A stretch of 64,000 nt of DNA from Gammaproteobacteria bacterium (GTDB taxonomy: Bacteria > Pseudomonadota > Gammaproteobacteria > Ga0077554 > Ga007554). The notes beneath the pieces were generated by a model. The model had not been told where the DNA came from, did no database searches, and saw only the letters and a list, made by a program, of their open reading frames with translations. Location: assembly GCA_040183005.1 (NCBI GenBank), contig JAMPIW010000001.1, forward strand, positions 124,001 through 188,000, given 5' to 3'. Below are positions 13,902-21,576 of the stretch, piece after piece (position 1 is the stretch's first letter; every line of letters begins with the position of its first letter). Position numbers and translations under genes: made by a program.

Positions 13902-14924
13902 CTATGACGATGGTAAAAAGTCGATGGGAAGCTTGGTCACGGTAGTGGCGACTTCTTTGGCTCCGAAGTCGAAAAGCAACACCCGCGCCACGATCTTTTG
14001 TATCAACTCGGGTGCCTCCATCGCGCTGGACACCACCTCGCAAGCGCTGACCTTGCCGGAGGGTTCTATGGTTAGTTTGAGCACCACCTTGCCCTGCAGG
14101 GATGGATCTTGCCGAAGCGCGCGGTTATAAAGCGAATACAGTGCTCCCTTGTTCTTATCGAACACCAACTGAATTTCATCGTCGGTGCGCGAACCGCCGG
14201 TTTTTTGCTTGGTCGATTTAGGCGCCTCGGTTTCACCAGGGTGAGCCGTGGGCTGCGGATTGTTGACACGCGTGGTCGTCCGTTCCGCCAGTTGCGTACC
14301 GCTGACGTTGCGGCTGGCGCTGGCGGTCTTTACCCCCTCGTTCCCGCGAGCCGTACCGGATGTAATCATCGAGCGCTGCACAAAGGGTTCGATCTTGCTG
14401 GGCTGGATAAGCTTCTCGTCCGTTTGCGCACTGGTTACGACGGGCTTGTCACGCAATGCCGCCAGATCGTTGCTTAACGCCAGCAGACCCGAGCTGGCCG
14501 CCTTCTTGCGCGCGGCCTCGATATTGACCTTGGGCGGTTCTACGGGCAGCGGCTCAGGCGTAGGCTCTTGCTTGGTCACTTGCACAGGCTCGATTTTCTT
14601 CTCGGGCTGGGGCTTGATTCTCAGCTCCGCCTTTGGCGCGGGCTGTGGCTTGGGAGCTTGCTCCGGCTTTGTGGCCAATGGTTTGACGGGCGAGGGTTTC
14701 GCAACCGGTGGGGGCAATTGCTTGCGTTCAAGCACCAGTCTGGCCAGCCGTGGCGGCACTTCCTCGGCTTGTTCCCGGGTGATTTTTGGAACCTGGATAA
14801 AAGTGATGATGCTCGAAATCACCAGAAAGCCTATCAGCACCGATGCCAGGATTACCCGGAAACGGTGTTCGTCCTGGGTGGTCATGGCCCATGGCAGGTC
14901 GGGGGAGTGATAATGAACCGCCAC
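13902..14924 (-). CDS. TonB-like / AgmX-PglI C-terminal domain protein of the motor operon
   Basis: A 340-residue single-pass protein. The membrane segment (about residues 24-43) is followed by a Pro/Lys/Glu-rich periplasmic spacer (about 70-135), a low-complexity region, and a C-terminal domain from about 245 (DDEIQLVFDKNKGALYSLYNRAL ... LTIEPSGKVSACEVVSS). This is the pattern of the AgmX/PglI C-terminal and TonB-C families. Such proteins transmit proton-motor force across the periplasm. The start chosen is GTG 14924, three bases after the previous stop; ATG 14885 is the alternative. It is the last gene of the motor operon and converges on dgkA. Confidence 0.8.
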   Translation of the reverse strand: MAVHYHSPDLPWAMTTQDEHRFRVILASVLIGFLVISSIITFIQVPKITREQAEEVPPRLARLVLERKQLPPPVAKPSPVKPLATKPEQAPKPQPAPKAELRIKPQPEKKIEPVQVTKQEPTPEPLPVEPPKVNIEAARKKAASSGLLALSNDLAALRDKPVVTSAQTDEKLIQPSKIEPFVQRSMITSGTARGNEGVKTASASRNVSGTQLAERTTTRVNNPQPTAHPGETEAPKSTKQKTGGSRTDDEIQLVFDKNKGALYSLYNRALRQDPSLQGKVVLKLTIEPSGKVSACEVVSSAMEAPELIQKIVARVLLFDFGAKEVATTVTKLPIDFLPSS

Positions 14925-14927
14925 GGC

Positions 14928-15419
14928 CTATTGCCCCGCCGCTCTTGGTTTTTGCAGCACAGCGAGAAAAATGTTGCTGTAATTGGCTTGTGTACACGTA
15001 ACCATGATTTTCTTCAAAAGCTTGTAGGGAATTTGCCGGTCACCCATGATGGTAATGTCGCTGTTGGCTTTGCTGCCTTGCCGCCCGGCTTGATGCTCAA
15101 GCTCGTTTTTCAATGGCGCGATGACATCTTCAGGGGCGTCCAGCACGTCTTTTACGGAGGCTATTTTGCGGCCCTGCATGATAATGTCGGTTCCACTCAC
15201 CATGATCAGTATGGTTTGCTTGGGTTGTTTTTCAACGATGGATTCGGGAAGTTTTACCACCTTGGTGTTGGGCAGAATTTCCACCTCGGAGGCACCTACC
15301 ACAAGAAAAAACACCAGGATGGTGAAGATATCCACCAGGGCAATCAGGTTGAGTTTGCCACCCCGCGTTGTTCGAGCGTGGTGCCGCTCCATGCGTCTGG
15401 CGCGCCGTGACATTTTCAT
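14928..15419 (-). CDS. ExbD/TolR family biopolymer transport protein (with catalytic Asp)
   Basis: A 163-residue protein with a basic N-terminus, one membrane helix (about 24-42, LIALVDIFTILVFFLVVG) and a periplasmic domain. The helix carries the conserved proton-accepting aspartate (Asp30) of ExbD/TolR/AglR-type stators. It lies between a second ExbD-like gene and the TonB-like gene, so it is a stator subunit of the same motor. Confidence 0.88.
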   Translation of the reverse strand: MKMSRRARRMERHHARTTRGGKLNLIALVDIFTILVFFLVVGASEVEILPNTKVVKLPESIVEKQPKQTILIMVSGTDIIMQGRKIASVKDVLDAPEDVIAPLKNELEHQAGRQGSKANSDITIMGDRQIPYKLLKKIMVTCTQANYSNIFLAVLQKPRAAGQ

Positions 15420-15440: not shown

Positions 15441-15944
15441 TTATTTTATTTTCTTGCCGGCCGGGGCGTCGCCAATGGATATATCAGGGAAAAGCTCGGC
15501 GGATCCCATCGCCCCGCTTCTTTCCTCGCGCAACGCATCCATCACCTGCACCAGGAGGTCATAAGGAGTGTCATCTTCCAGCAGGATCGACGCATCCCGT
15601 TTTTCCGGGAAGCGAGCTTTTAATTGATGAAGATTCTGCGCCAGGGATTTGATGTCATAACTGCCGGATGTATTATTTATCCGCTCAAAAAAGCTGCCGT
15701 TTCTGTCATTTATTTCAATAGCATCCTTGCGCAGAATCACCTCCAGCAGAAATTCCTTTTTCGGTTGTGGGGCGCTACTGGATGATGCCTGAGCGGCCGG
15801 GGGCATATTCAGCTCAAGCACCGTGATGCGCGAAAATACCGCCGAGGTCAACAGGAAGCACACCAGAATCACCATCATGTTGATCATGGCGGTGAGGTCC
15901 AGCTCGTCACCTTCGTTCCGCGCGAGTAGGGTGCGGCGTTTCAT
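15441..15944 (-). CDS. ExbD/TolR family protein lacking the catalytic Asp
   Basis: A 167-residue ExbD-like protein. Its N-terminus RNEGDELDLTAMINMMVILVCFLLTSAVF aligns with the membrane helix of the neighbouring ExbD, but asparagine (Asn22) stands where the proton-binding aspartate should be. Its ATG overlaps the stop codon of the ExbB-like gene by one base (TGATG), so the two are translationally coupled. The two ExbD proteins probably form an asymmetric pair inside one ExbB/TolQ pore. Confidence 0.85.
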   Translation of the reverse strand: MKRRTLLARNEGDELDLTAMINMMVILVCFLLTSAVFSRITVLELNMPPAAQASSSSAPQPKKEFLLEVILRKDAIEINDRNGSFFERINNTSGSYDIKSLAQNLHQLKARFPEKRDASILLEDDTPYDLLVQVMDALREERSGAMGSAELFPDISIGDAPAGKKIK

Positions 15945-16594
15945 TAGGGTGAGCCTTGCTTGTCGGAGTGTTCCTTGATGATGTTCAATACTTTTACGGA
16001 GGCCATCTCCAGGCTGTCCACCAGCTCAACGGTTTTGGACTGAAGCACGCTATAGATCAGCAGCAGCGGTATCGCCACCATCAATCCGAATGCCGTTGAG
16101 TTCATACCCACGGAAATACTGGCGGAAAGCAGCGCAGCTTTCTCGGAGGGGTTGGCGCTGGAGACGGCGGTAAACGCATCAATCAGGCCGATAACCGTGC
16201 CGAGCAACCCCAACAGTGTGGAAACATTGGCGAAGGTGGTGAGGTAGTGTGTGCGTTTTTCAAGGCGCGGGACGGTTTCCAGGAGTCCTTCCTCCATGGC
16301 GGTTTCAACATCGTCATGCCGTCGGCTTGTAACAATCCGGGACAACCCATAAGACAAAATGTTGCTGATGGCGGCATTGGACTGCGACATCATGTCTTGT
16401 GCGGCTTTGTACTCGCCACGCTTGAGCACCGGCAGCAGCTTGTCCCACATTTCCCGGTTCTTGTTGCGGGCGGCTGTCAGGAAGACATAGCGCTCGATGG
16501 CGATGGCGAGTCCCAGGGCGAAGATCCCGAGGATGAGGTACATAATAAAACCGCCGTCTTGAAAGAAGCGGATTGAGGAACTAAAAAAATCCAT
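15944..16594 (-). CDS. MotA/TolQ/ExbB proton channel family protein
   Basis: A 216-residue inner-membrane protein with three membrane segments: about 15-38, then two after residue 115. The family signature STLLGLLGTVIGLIDAF and the last segment with STAFGLMVAIPLLLIYS are present. The pentameric pore formed by such proteins surrounds an ExbD/TolR dimer and drives movement with the proton motive force. The two ExbD-like genes and the TonB-like gene follow directly, so it is the motor core of this operon. Confidence 0.9.
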   Translation of the reverse strand: MDFFSSSIRFFQDGGFIMYLILGIFALGLAIAIERYVFLTAARNKNREMWDKLLPVLKRGEYKAAQDMMSQSNAAISNILSYGLSRIVTSRRHDDVETAMEEGLLETVPRLEKRTHYLTTFANVSTLLGLLGTVIGLIDAFTAVSSANPSEKAALLSASISVGMNSTAFGLMVAIPLLLIYSVLQSKTVELVDSLEMASVKVLNIIKEHSDKQGSP

Positions 16595-16680: not shown

Positions 16681-16950
16681 CTATCTGGAATTAAAAATTG
16701 CGTGGTATTGCATCTGGCGTAACAGGGTGTCCCTGTCCAGCGGCGCAAGGGCGGCGTTGGCGAACTCACCCATTGACCGGGCTGGCAGTGGGGCAGTTTC
16801 CGGTTTCTTCCACGGAACGATGTAGAGCGTTTTTGGCATGTCAGAATCACCTATGATTTTCGTGCCAGATGATTCAATAGTATCTTCTGCCTCCGAAACG
16901 CCAGTGAATAAACATAAAACGCCCATGATCAAAAGCGCTGATGGTTTCAT
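16681..16950 (-). CDS. Small secreted protein of the motor operon
   Basis: An 89-residue protein with a signal peptide (about 1-21, ending GVSEA). No family is recognised. The mature part contains TLYIVPWKKPETAPLPAR and ends FNSR. Its ATG overlaps the stop of the large TPR gene by four bases (ATGA), which strongly supports translation and coupling. It lies between the TPR lipoprotein and the proton-channel genes, so it is probably a periplasmic accessory part of the same complex. Confidence 0.75.
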   Translation of the reverse strand: MKPSALLIMGVLCLFTGVSEAEDTIESSGTKIIGDSDMPKTLYIVPWKKPETAPLPARSMGEFANAALAPLDRDTLLRQMQYHAIFNSR

Positions 16951-19900
16951 TTATCCGTCACCCCCGCGGTTTTCTCTGCACCATTATGGCGTTTTTCGAG
17001 ATCTGCGATCCACATTCCCACTTGCTTGTCAGCGGTGGGCAACAGGCCTTGATATAGCCGGTACTGCTCCAATGCCTTGCCGGTGTCGCGCAGATAAAGA
17101 TCGTAAAGAATGCCAAGGTTGAGGTGGATTGATGAATGATTCGGGTCGATAACCAGGGCTTTTTCGTAGGCGTTGCGTGCGTCATCGAAGCGTCCGTTGT
17201 CGCGATAATGAATCCCGAGGTGGTTGTATGCCTCAACGTTCGGCGGGACTTGTGCGGTGGCGTTTATCAATATCTTTTCGTCTTCATCCTTGCCGTCGTT
17301 TTTCAACGTAATGCCGGTCAAGGGTTCGCTTTTCTCGTGCTTTGCATATTTGACCGGCAATAGTTTACCCAGTTCGGAAAAGCTTTTCCTGACGGATTCG
17401 TCATAGATGCCGGCGGACACGCGCCGGATATTCGATTCATATATCTGGATTGCCTTCTCTTCAAACGGAAAGGCTTGCTCTTCCAGGAGTACATCATATT
17501 GTTCCCGCTCCTCGGGGGTGAGTCCTTCGGGGCGTTGGGATTCAAGCAGATCACGGCTGAGGTCGCTGTATATCTTTGCCATCTGGTACGTCGCGGCAGT
17601 CGTTACATCCGCCACGCCAAACTCCGCAGCAGTGCCATAGGCCCGCAAGGCCGCTTCCATTTTTTCCTTTTTGATTTTCAGGTTCTGTTGCAGCGGTTCA
17701 ACCAGTCGCGCCTGGGTGAATGCCTGATATCCGAGATCGGCCAAGGTGATTGCAGCATGGGCAGCAGTTTGGCGGGTGCGCGGCGTGCGCTCCGCGCCAC
17801 CTTCCCGGTCTGCCTTGATGATGTCCTTCAGCCAATAATTTTGCATGCTCGCGTCATTGCCTTGCTTATAGGCTTCCGCGAGGCGGTTGCGCGCCTCGAT
17901 GGCCTGCTCCAGCGGACTGGGGAACTGCTCGACGTACAGCCCATAGACCTTGGCGGCGTTCTTGGTGTCTTTGGCTTTTTCATAAAGCTCCGCAGCTTGC
18001 CACGTGGCGTCTTGGCGAACCGAGGCATCCTTGTTGCTGGCAATCGTTTTTTCAAGTTCGGCGGCGGCCTTTGCGGGCTGATCCAGCTGAAGGTAGGCCG
18101 TTACCATTTGCCGTGATACATCGGTCTGGAAGGCGTTGTCAGGGTAGGTTTTCTGGAGTTGGCTAAAGATGCGCAGTGCGTTACCCCAGTCGTTCAGCGA
18201 CATATAGCCGACGGCAGCATCATATTCCGCCGAGAGGCGGATGGGTGATGCAGGCGCCGCCGCGCCGACCCGAAGGAAGTGCTGGATCGCCGCTGGCATA
18301 TCGCCTGCGGTACGGGATTGTTCACCTTGCCGATATATTGCCGATGCCAGATTCTCCATGATTTCCACCCTGCCTGGATCACCTGCGGGAAGGAGATTCA
18401 GTGCCTCGCGATAGCTTGCCTCCGCACGATCAAAATTATCCCGTTCAAATTCAGTGTGCGCGATGATGGTTGTCGCCAAGCTGCGTTGCTTGATGTCAGC
18501 GGGGGGCTCCATTTTCAGAATTCGCCGCGCGGCGAATTCAGCCTTGTCATACTGCTTTAGAGAGAACAGCTCTTCCATCGCGGAGACCAGAATGGCGGGC
18601 ACCCGTTTGTCCTTGGGATACTTTTCGGAGAACCGCATCGCGCTCACCACAGCATTACGCCGCCACAGATTTTTTTCATAGCCCGAGAGTTTTTCTCCAT
18701 GTTTCTGATAGGCGAGCAGGGCCGCATAGCCTGCTTCGGCACCATTTTGATTGGCGGGAATATCATAGGCGACGTTTTCATAACGTGTGACTGCATCGGC
18801 ATAACGCCCATTCTCGTACAAGCTTTCAGCGAGCAGGAAGGTGATGCCTGGGGCATCGTTATCCTCGGGGAAATTTTTCAGAAATTTCGTATACCAATCC
18901 ATGGCCTCCTTGTATGCCGCGCGCGCCTTGCTCTTTTGCGCTTCAGCATGATAATGGCGCGCCAAGTCCTCAAGGATGACCCTTAAGTAGGAGGTAATCT
19001 TGTCTTGGGCGATTTTGTCGCCGTATATCAGGTGTTCGGTATACGTTTTTGTGGAATTGCTGATGCGACGTTGATTGTAGTCATCATAGACGCGGACAAA
19101 TTCCCGTTTTTCAGGCAGGAGCAGGGATACGAACTCAGGCCTTTTGTAGGCATCGATGATTCGCTGCTGCATGAGCACGCTGTAGGGATGGCCCGGATGC
19201 GCCTTGATGAATGCCCTGTAGCTGTTTACGGCGTCGCTGACACGGTCTTTCTCAAGAGCAAGTTCACCGAGGGATTTATACAGAAGGTGTTCATACGGGC
19301 GATAACCTTTGGCGGAAAGATACGAGTCGATCGATTCCGCGCCATTAAGATGATAAAAGCTGAGGCTGGTAACGTGCAGTGTATCTTTTACAAATTCCTG
19401 TTCGCCGCGCGGCAAGACAAAGTCATCGGCTACGGCTTTGTTCACAGGAAACTTTTTGTCCAAAATCGCAAAGAAAGAACCAAGGGCGGGCAAATACTGC
19501 TCCTGCTTGTAAAGGCTCCAGCCGTGTTTATACAGCGCCATCTCGTAAAATTGGGACTTTTTCAGGGGAAACAGGGAGGCATAGGCCTTCTCGGCCTGAG
19601 CATAATCCTTTAACGTAAACAGAATTTCCCCGCGCCGGAACTGGACCTCATCCATATAGCCTATCTTTGGATAGGCATTCGCCAAGCGAGTCAGCGTTTG
19701 CAACGTGTTTTGATAATCACCGCTTTGCTCATATGCTTTTGCCAGTTGATACAGTGTGTTTTCAGCGTCGGATTTTGGGGCTTGTTCCTGTAACAGCTCC
19801 TGATACAGATTGATCGCATTGCGGTTATCCGCAGGGGGTGGCGGTGCGCTGGTTTGGGCGTCTTGTTGGGATTTCTTGATCTTGCCCAGGAAAATGGACT

Positions 19901-20150
19901 CCGCATTATCCACCTCTAAATCGGCGATCTTGCGTTTTGCCTCGCGCTGGACTGATTTATCATTTGCCGTGCCCGCGATGGATTGGTACTGTTCGATGGC
20001 CTTGCTGCGGCTGTCCGGGATGGTGGTATCCTTTTCGACGGAAATGTTACGACGCTCCAGACTTTTGAGGGTTGGGCTATCGTCTTTTACCTGTGCGCAG
20101 CCAGCAAAGACGAGCAAGAGTAGTGGGGTCAGGCGACTGTAGTGTTTCAA
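16947..20150 (-). CDS. Large TPR-repeat lipoprotein of the motor operon
   Basis: A 1067-residue protein. TTG 20150 is preferred: it lies one base after the upstream stop, has GGGGAG before it, and gives MKHYSRLTPLLLLVFAGC, a lipoprotein signal with lipobox VFAGC. The remainder is mostly tetratricopeptide-like helical repeats (for example ENTLYQLAKAYEQSGDYQNTL near 140). A canonical TPR pair lies near the C-terminus (YNHLGIHYRDNGRFDDARNAY). Length, TPR content and motor neighbours resemble the TPR lipoproteins of the myxobacterial Agl/Glt gliding machine. It probably sits at the outer membrane as a scaffold; the function is inferred. Confidence 0.82.
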   Translation of the reverse strand: MKHYSRLTPLLLLVFAGCAQVKDDSPTLKSLERRNISVEKDTTIPDSRSKAIEQYQSIAGTANDKSVQREAKRKIADLEVDNAESIFLGKIKKSQQDAQTSAPPPPADNRNAINLYQELLQEQAPKSDAENTLYQLAKAYEQSGDYQNTLQTLTRLANAYPKIGYMDEVQFRRGEILFTLKDYAQAEKAYASLFPLKKSQFYEMALYKHGWSLYKQEQYLPALGSFFAILDKKFPVNKAVADDFVLPRGEQEFVKDTLHVTSLSFYHLNGAESIDSYLSAKGYRPYEHLLYKSLGELALEKDRVSDAVNSYRAFIKAHPGHPYSVLMQQRIIDAYKRPEFVSLLLPEKREFVRVYDDYNQRRISNSTKTYTEHLIYGDKIAQDKITSYLRVILEDLARHYHAEAQKSKARAAYKEAMDWYTKFLKNFPEDNDAPGITFLLAESLYENGRYADAVTRYENVAYDIPANQNGAEAGYAALLAYQKHGEKLSGYEKNLWRRNAVVSAMRFSEKYPKDKRVPAILVSAMEELFSLKQYDKAEFAARRILKMEPPADIKQRSLATTIIAHTEFERDNFDRAEASYREALNLLPAGDPGRVEIMENLASAIYRQGEQSRTAGDMPAAIQHFLRVGAAAPASPIRLSAEYDAAVGYMSLNDWGNALRIFSQLQKTYPDNAFQTDVSRQMVTAYLQLDQPAKAAAELEKTIASNKDASVRQDATWQAAELYEKAKDTKNAAKVYGLYVEQFPSPLEQAIEARNRLAEAYKQGNDASMQNYWLKDIIKADREGGAERTPRTRQTAAHAAITLADLGYQAFTQARLVEPLQQNLKIKKEKMEAALRAYGTAAEFGVADVTTAATYQMAKIYSDLSRDLLESQRPEGLTPEEREQYDVLLEEQAFPFEEKAIQIYESNIRRVSAGIYDESVRKSFSELGKLLPVKYAKHEKSEPLTGITLKNDGKDEDEKILINATAQVPPNVEAYNHLGIHYRDNGRFDDARNAYEKALVIDPNHSSIHLNLGILYDLYLRDTGKALEQYRLYQGLLPTADKQVGMWIADLEKRHNGAEKTAGVTDK

Positions 20151-20151
20151 C

Positions 20152-21576
20152 TTACTCGTCTCCCCGTGCCGCAGCGTGATTATAAAGCTCCGCCATGCCA
20201 AGTTTCGCTTGCGTAAGATAGTTGTCCAACCGTTGCTCACGTAGCGATAGTTCGGAAATCATGGTTTTCTGTATATAGGCATCCAGCTTTTTCATCAGGC
20301 CTTGCGCTTCCACCAAGGCCTGATCGATGTGCGTGTTGGCTGCGGATGTGCGGCGTGCTCGCTGCTGCTCCAGAATATTCTGCAGGGCGAGAGATTTACG
20401 ATAAAGTAAAACAGCCTCCTGTATCTGCGAATTTTCCATTAGCCACGGAAAATAGTGATTCTCCGGTGCATCCGGCAGCTTTCTTAGCGTGTTTTGCCAT
20501 TGCGTATCATCACCCGCATCAAGGCGCAGAACATTATTCTCCAGTTTTCCTGCACGAATCGCGTCTATCGACTGTTTGACACGCAATGCTTCAGCAGCAT
20601 AGTGAGAAATGGCGTTCTGATAGTGTTTCTGCGCCTCTTTGTAAGATTCAAGCTTGAATAAAGTGTCAGGTACGGTCAGCAAAGCCTCTTGCGTTTCTAC
20701 ATCCCTTATCTCTCGCTGCGCCAACTCCATCCACGGTATTAGCGCGCGTTTATGCTGATTTTGCGCTGACTCCGCAAACCCTGATCCTAACAATGCCTTC
20801 GGGGAGAAATAGCTGTTCAACCTGATTTTCTGGAAATACACCTTGGCTAAAGCAGGTTCTTTTTTTTGAAGGTAATGGTACCCAAGGGCAAGATTGGCCT
20901 TGTCCTGTAACATCTTCAATTCGGCATCAGAAAAAATTTCTTTGCTGATGCCATCAAGCAATCCCGCACCTTGCAATGATATGCCATCCTTGAGCATATT
21001 CACGGCGAGATTATGGCGGCTGAAATAGCCTGGCTTGGTATCGCTGTCCAAGCGAGGCAGCCGTGTTCCTGCTTGCTGAAATTGTTTTTTTGCTATTAAG
21101 AGATTTATCAGGAGCAAATCCTGCTGGATGCGCAGTTTTCCCGGCAGATCTTCAATCGTTGAAAGAAGTTTCTCTGCCGCCGGGTATGAACCTTGGCCGT
21201 AAAGTATTTTTGCGGAATAAAGGCTGGCAATGTCGCCAATAGATGAGGAGGAGCTGTTACTTATAAGGCGTGAAAAAACCTTTTGCGCCTCGTTGGGCAT
21301 GTCACTGGCAAGGTAAAGCATGCCCAATAGAAGATCGCCCTCTTGTTCCTGGCTCACCAAGACGCGGGTTTCTTGCGCGACGGTTAGCCGTGTTATGGCA
21401 GAGAAGTTATCGCCCCGGTAGAAGTCGAATAACGCCGCTCCGAAATGCGGGTCTTTTACCTTCCATGATAGATCGCCGCGAAGGTCGTCCGCCGCATTAG
21501 CTGCCGGTAGCAACAGGCCTGCGATAAGGAAGATGATCCAGCGTGCTAGAAAATACTTTATGGCTGAGCATCCCAT
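20152..21576 (-). CDS. Periplasmic TPR-like protein of the motor operon
   Basis: A 474-residue protein with a signal peptide (about 1-28, LLPAANA-A). It is rich in helical hairpin repeats of TPR/Sel1 character (SLYSAKILYGQGSYPAAEKLL, YHYLQKKEPALAKVYFQKI, FKLESYKEAQKHYQNAISHY). A coiled-coil-prone C-terminal third covers about 390-470. It lies 12 bases after the previous gene and its stop is one base before the start of the large TPR lipoprotein, so they are translated together. It is probably a partner scaffold; no enzyme motif is seen. Confidence 0.78.
   Translation of the reverse strand: MGCSAIKYFLARWIIFLIAGLLLPAANAADDLRGDLSWKVKDPHFGAALFDFYRGDNFSAITRLTVAQETRVLVSQEQEGDLLLGMLYLASDMPNEAQKVFSRLISNSSSSSIGDIASLYSAKILYGQGSYPAAEKLLSTIEDLPGKLRIQQDLLLINLLIAKKQFQQAGTRLPRLDSDTKPGYFSRHNLAVNMLKDGISLQGAGLLDGISKEIFSDAELKMLQDKANLALGYHYLQKKEPALAKVYFQKIRLNSYFSPKALLGSGFAESAQNQHKRALIPWMELAQREIRDVETQEALLTVPDTLFKLESYKEAQKHYQNAISHYAAEALRVKQSIDAIRAGKLENNVLRLDAGDDTQWQNTLRKLPDAPENHYFPWLMENSQIQEAVLLYRKSLALQNILEQQRARRTSAANTHIDQALVEAQGLMKKLDAYIQKTMISELSLREQRLDNYLTQAKLGMAELYNHAAARGDE

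Follow-up and report, generated by a model that had tools for sequence, protein, structure and literature searches.

Two adjacent ExbD-like proteins encoded in the window (the whole 64-kb stretch of DNA analysed here) differ at the residue that binds protons in ExbD/TolR stators. ExbD2 keeps the aspartate, while ExbD1 has asparagine in its place. In the alpha- and gammaproteobacterial genomes that we sampled, an Asn-type ExbD is found only beside an Asp-type ExbD. We consider it probable that ExbD1 and ExbD2 pair as a heterodimer inside one ExbB pentamer (5:1:1), with ExbD2 alone contributing a proton-binding Asp; the shared pore, this make-up, the proton count and the role of the Asn helix are what we infer from sequence comparisons. 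The broader proposal, that heterodimers of one active and one inert ExbD are a widespread second ExbB/ExbD design in Pseudomonadota that evolved at least twice and runs on five protons per turn, may go too far, and we advance it tentatively.

The two genes lie in an operon-like run of seven, all on the minus strand between window positions 13902 and 21576, in the order 474-residue protein, 1097-residue TPR protein, 89-residue protein, ExbB, ExbD1, ExbD2 and TonB-like protein. The features are as follows.

20152 to 21576, minus strand: 474-residue protein with weak TPR matches, one of them just above the cut-off (TPR_14)
16947 to 20240, minus strand: 1097-residue protein matching TPR families, by eye an apparent lipoprotein
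16681 to 16950, minus strand: small exported-looking protein of 89 residues, no family over the cut-off
15944 to 16594, minus strand: ExbB/TolQ-like ring protein, 216 residues (PF01618, 97.6 bits)
15441 to 15944, minus strand: ExbD1, 167 residues (PF02472, 63.5 bits, cut-off 25.4), a transmembrane helix followed by a TolR/ExbD-like periplasmic domain
15879 to 15881, minus strand: codon AAC for Asn22 of ExbD1, aligned with Asp25 of Escherichia coli ExbD
15462 to 15494, minus strand: C-terminal tail of ExbD1, residues 151-161 (LFPDISIGDAP), with no equivalent in ExbD2
14928 to 15419, minus strand: ExbD2, 163 residues (PF02472, 45.2 bits, cut-off 25.4), proton-binding Asp30 kept
15330 to 15332, minus strand: codon GAT for Asp30 of ExbD2
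13902 to 14924, minus strand: TonB-like transducer, 340 residues, with an AgmX/PglI (GltG-type) C-terminal domain (NF033768, 60.2 bits, cut-off 40)

The stop codon of ExbB and the start codon of ExbD1 overlap (TAATG). To follow the operon across relatives, we used a set of loci that all contain ExbD1, namely the best 80 of 305 relatives found with search patterns of which one, AMINMMVI, includes the Asn. Within these best 80, ExbB, both ExbD genes and the TonB-like gene occur together in 76 loci. The 89-residue protein is encoded in 71, the 1097-residue TPR protein in 67 (contig ends cut some loci) and the 474-residue protein in 51, and all seven genes are present in 49, many of the contigs being short. 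The same genome carries eight ExbD-family genes, among which ExbD1 and ExbD2 are the sole tandem pair, and nine MotA/ExbB-family matches. As a side observation, the 89-residue gene, conserved and without a family, sits between the TPR protein and ExbB. It may correspond to the additional gene without myxococcal homologues that belongs to the core cluster of Luciano et al. (2011, PMC3169522).

The earlier note on this DNA had read the Asn from an alignment of the two membrane helices (LIALVDIFTIL in ExbD2, LTAMINMMVIL in ExbD1), and both the AAC codon and our alignments agree with it. A phmmer search against PDB sequences placed Asn22 opposite Asp25 of E. coli ExbD (query 10-69, ExbD 13-68) with an ungapped helix, at a weak score (E 0.024). 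In multiple alignments, a single column contains Asn22 and Asp30 together with the Asp found in ordinary ExbD proteins; the control rows of one such alignment comprised 68 distinct sequences, with L166 unscorable at the site. All seven other members of the ExbD family in this genome have Asp here. The earlier note had named another acidic residue at the site as the observation that would overturn its reading, and none was present in the 96 orthologues lacking the Asp. Indeed, positions 17-38 of these 96 proteins hold no charged residue except one Arg at position 38.

Two ways in which an acidic group might nonetheless be supplied were considered and rejected. Asp16 lies at the helix end that faces the cytoplasm and is variable (Asn in 51, Asp in 12, Leu in 10 and Glu in 6 of 81 sequences), which argues against a substitute proton site. 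Deamidation of Asn22 to Asp was set aside on general knowledge. No Gly follows Asn22, and lineages in need of Asp have Asp codons at their disposal.

Apart from this residue, ExbD1 looks like a member of its family. The AlphaFold2 model, for which the folding alignment was given 37 of the 109 ExbD1 rows (L064 excluded), shows residues 12-44 as a helix and the periplasmic domain with a fold like that of TolR, at a mean pLDDT of 67.5. The periplasmic part superimposes on TolR (5by4) with Z 10.0 over 84 residues at an rmsd of 3.2, a comparison that barely tests the helix. Against ExbD (8vgc) the model scores Z 8.5, level with unrelated rows, and Foldseek returned ExbD (8pek) and otherwise mostly chance matches. 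Given the PF02472 score and the TolR/ExbD fold on one side and Asn22 on the other, ExbD1 belongs to the ExbD/TolR family without being a canonical proton carrier.

Two stretches of ExbD1 are under the strongest conservation. One is the helix, where L27, F30, L31, L32, A35, V36 and F37 are invariant in 37 sequences. The other is the tail at 151-161, the most conserved stretch besides the helix, which is nearly invariant, lies beyond the Pfam ExbD match (11-141) and is modelled in part as a strand (154-159); it may serve as a docking or dimer strand. A tail conserved above most of ExbD1 is what one might expect if ExbD1 stood outside the pore and had lost its motor role, being kept for its periplasmic domain and tail. 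We hold this to be very improbable, since the helix is itself strongly conserved and free of charge, as expected of a pore helix.

Conservation of Asn22 in orthologous operons, a check proposed in the earlier note, is extensive and falls short of complete. Across all 109 orthologous rows the ExbD1 site is Asn in 95, Asp in 13 and Ser in 1. Among the 101 distinct sequences, Asn is kept in 87 and Ser is found in 1; the other 13 have Asp in both subunits, so that Asn is common without being obligatory and is dispensable in some lineages. The partner ExbD2 keeps Asp in all of its 108 rows (108/108), one of the 80 loci having no ExbD2 row. Both Asn codons are in use (of 84 rows, 60 have AAC and 24 have AAT), and this, together with the 87 distinct Asn orthologues, argues that Asn22 is neither chance nor a sequencing error. 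The best 80 of 305 relatives gave Asn in 68 and Asp in 12, a ratio biased towards Asn because the search pattern includes that residue and only the best 80 were kept. Two samples were drawn without this bias. In a similarity search of 37 relatives, the ExbD1 family accounts for the 14 best matches, with Asn in 13 and Asp in 1, and in a search of 398 Pseudomonadota genomes with no selection for Asn, the 15 matches had Asn in 14, Ser in 1 and Asp in none. Plasmid searches returned nothing.

Some individual loci deserve mention in their own right. At L119, the ExbD1 site is Ser and the partner has the normal Asp. Two genomes each carry two diverged ExbD1-ExbD2 pairs (L118 and L123 in G207, L114 and L122 in G401), and all four of these ExbD1 proteins have Asn.

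In a tree of concatenated ExbB, ExbD1 and ExbD2 from 99 operons, the site requires at least two changes of state, one between Asn and Asp and one to Ser. With midpoint rooting, the Asp/Asp operons form a single group nested among Asn operons. When ExbD1 and ExbD2 were used to root each other, the Asp/Asp operons fell within a group supported at 96/91, and the Asn operons L098 and L112 branched outside it. By parsimony, Asn is thus probably older than the Asp/Asp clade, and that clade would represent a return to Asp. The existence and persistence of this clade could also be taken to mean that the Asn is neutral or decaying by drift. We give this hardly any credence: as few as two changes account for the tree, diverse as its 99 operons are, Asn is encoded by either of its synonymous codons, and drift would have to contend with the distribution of the residue in our census.

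This census covered all PF02472 matches at E 1e-5, of which 100 came from 55 alphaproteobacterial and 102 from 33 gammaproteobacterial genomes. The residue at the site was read in each of these 202 matches from the 88 genomes. Every solitary ExbD gene encoded Asp (138 of 138; alpha 64/64, gamma 74/74). Of 32 tandem pairs, 21 had exactly one Asn, 11 were Asp/Asp and none was Asn/Asn. The 18 alphaproteobacterial pairs divided into 12 Asp/Asn and 6 Asp/Asp. Among the 14 gammaproteobacterial pairs, 9 had one Asn (8 from the window family and 1 of a Ton-type family) and 5 were Asp/Asp (1 from the window family). Divergent Asn-type genes may escape a profile threshold of 1e-5 (one was found at E 2.1e-6), and genome counts overstate the independent evidence because the Asn pairs come from essentially two families. 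For the same reason we do not rely on Fisher's test (2.4e-12) or on the pairing probability (0.0066), both of which treat genes as independent. The rule of Asn solely in tandem pairs, and never in both members, makes such motors easy to recognise from sequence. In the texts that our literature searches on heterodimeric or Asp-less ExbD brought up, we found no description of the trait or of the pairing rule.

The two families are that of the window, in which the Asn gene comes first, and the Ton-type family, mainly alphaproteobacterial, in which it comes second. We first met the latter at locus L155 and searched for it across a single alphaproteobacterial order (61 genomes). The family includes L155 / L173 in G051 and the relatives L174-L203. 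In all 30 loci returned by the search, the first gene encodes Asp and the second Asn, and the flanking DNA retrieved for each pair contains exactly one ExbB gene. At L173, the tandem pair lies between ExbB and a TonB-like protein, next to genes that we take to encode a TonB-dependent receptor-like and a haem-binding-like protein. These ExbB-ExbD(Asp)-ExbD(Asn)-TonB loci thus resemble the window operon in having tandem ExbDs, one Asn and one ExbB gene. They differ from it in gene order and in forming a separate clade in our careful tree.

That tree (78 rows) kept the two Asn families separate and joined ExbD1 and ExbD2 of the window family at 98/95; forcing the Asn groups together lowered the likelihood by 11.5 log units, which the AU test did not reject (0.25). 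A quick tree of 177 rows likewise placed the families apart. However, a search of the same set with the Asn groups held together scored 40.7 log units better (AU 0.928), so the quick free tree was a poor one. Taken together, an independent origin of the two Asn families is favoured.

The simplest reading of the census is that the two ExbDs make up the inner pair of a single ring, which would ensure that one Asp is always present. The census rule and the presence of one ExbB gene per pair give strong indirect support to the proposed sharing of a ring, and a pairing of one active with one inactive subunit, kept in many bacteria, looks like design rather than accident. A lone ExbB gene beside the pair could, on the other hand, serve two complexes. 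The operon would then encode two homodimeric motors, an active ExbB5-ExbD2(2) and an inert ExbB5-ExbD1(2) acting as brake, decoy or anchor, and for AglQ and AglS of Myxococcus xanthus the choice between homo- and heterodimer is likewise undecided (review PMC9389320). We regard two motors as unlikely. A decoy could be encoded anywhere, and yet the census has no solitary Asn gene (0/138) and no Asn/Asn pair (0/32). In addition, the TAATG overlap suggests coupled synthesis, by which we would expect the inert complex to be abundant.

In the heterodimer that we prefer, protons would pass through the single active helix of ExbD2. The Asn helix would keep polar packing at the site and act as a passive partner, perhaps as a bearing, gate or anchor. 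In known structures, two inner helices are encircled by five ring subunits, and in the two-site model both Asp residues swap protonation state at every 36-degree step (PMC12905483), which amounts to 10 ions per turn (PMC9389320). If rotation brings each ring subunit past each active inner helix once per turn, each turn of a one-site motor would consume 5 protons and consist of 72-degree steps, as against 10 protons and 36-degree steps with two sites. The earlier note had argued, conditionally, that a shared pore would leave a single active protonation site. Of this reading, the absence of the Asp from ExbD1 and its conservation are established, and the shared pore is probable; the Asp/Asp operons lay outside what the note had seen. 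The motor would act across the periplasm by driving the GltG-like transducer. The Asn subunit might stay in the fixed position, use its conserved tail as a link to the periplasm, or do both. In recent work on TolQRA, the two TolR helices have unequal surroundings, one putative gate being open while the other is closed (PMC12965293), which suggests that the two inner positions need not be equivalent at any one time.

In E. coli, Asp25 of ExbD is essential and lies near Thr148 and Thr181 of ExbB (PMC6778125); here, the pore residues Thr133 and Thr167 are invariant in every ExbB row that covers them. Val162 stands where TolQ has its pore Glu, five residues ahead of the second pore Thr, and Met164-Asn165 beside this Thr is nearly invariant in Asn-type and Asp-type operons alike. 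We also compared ExbB positions 115-185 for a change tied to the Asn subunit. The differences, for example at 142 and 166, track the Asp/Asp clade and are inseparable from ancestry.

The Met-Asn pair, and the fact that the ExbD1 site is polar (Asn, Asp or Ser) in 109 of 109 rows, would fit a scheme in which the Asn site still contributes to ion transfer, for example by way of a water chain or ExbB side chains, with both subunits active. Three observations make this distinctly unlikely. Replacement of Asp by Asn at this site in M. xanthus (aglQ D28N) stopped the Agl motor (PMC3858216), so that Asn is no working proton carrier there. For ExbD, TolR and PomB, this Asp has been called an absolute requirement (PMC12905483). 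Finally, ExbB Asn165 is also present in 13 of 13 Asp/Asp operons and is thus unlinked to the Asn subunit.

Should the heterodimer and its single site prove true, natural half-wired motors of this kind can be used to discriminate between a one-site mechanism and an alternating two-site one. Given a ring shared by both subunits, nature would already provide a working one-site motor.

Among known systems, the window operon resembles in gene content the cluster of aglR, aglQ, aglS and gltC, gltD, gltE and gltG that is conserved with unknown function in Gammaproteobacteria (Luciano et al. 2011, PMC3169522). As in the "Group B core complex" of those authors, a ring protein, two ExbD-like proteins, a candidate GltG-type protein and TPR proteins are clustered. 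Just the AgmX/PglI domain and the ExbB/ExbD and TPR families score over their cut-offs. The TonB-like protein reaches only 39.4 bits against a cut-off of 650 with the GltG equivalog, in comparison with the AgmX/PglI domain score given above, and the GltE profile reaches 29.1 bits against 225 in the TPR region. No profile match in the window operon identified GltC or GltD. The portions of the Luciano et al. text available to us make no mention of an Asp/Asn difference for the core complex.

The E. coli complexes ExbB5-ExbD2 and TolQ5-TolR2 share with the window system a ring with pore threonines, inner subunits with a single helix and the TolR/ExbD periplasmic fold. Unlike the proposed window heterodimer, both contain homodimers with two aspartates, and the TolQ pore Glu is absent from the window ring protein (Val162 in the alignment).

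Another parallel is AglR/AglQ/AglS of M. xanthus, which acts in gliding and the spore coat and, as here, combines one ExbB/TolQ-like with two ExbD/TolR-like subunits. AglRQS is proton-driven and works with Glt/Nfs envelope proteins that include GltG (PMC3858216). In contrast to the window pair with its single Asn, AglQ and AglS both have the Asp according to a review (PMC9389320), so the best-studied relative is without the trait. Natural pairs in which one subunit has dispensed with the Asp bear both on proton counting and on the question of how AglQ and AglS pair.
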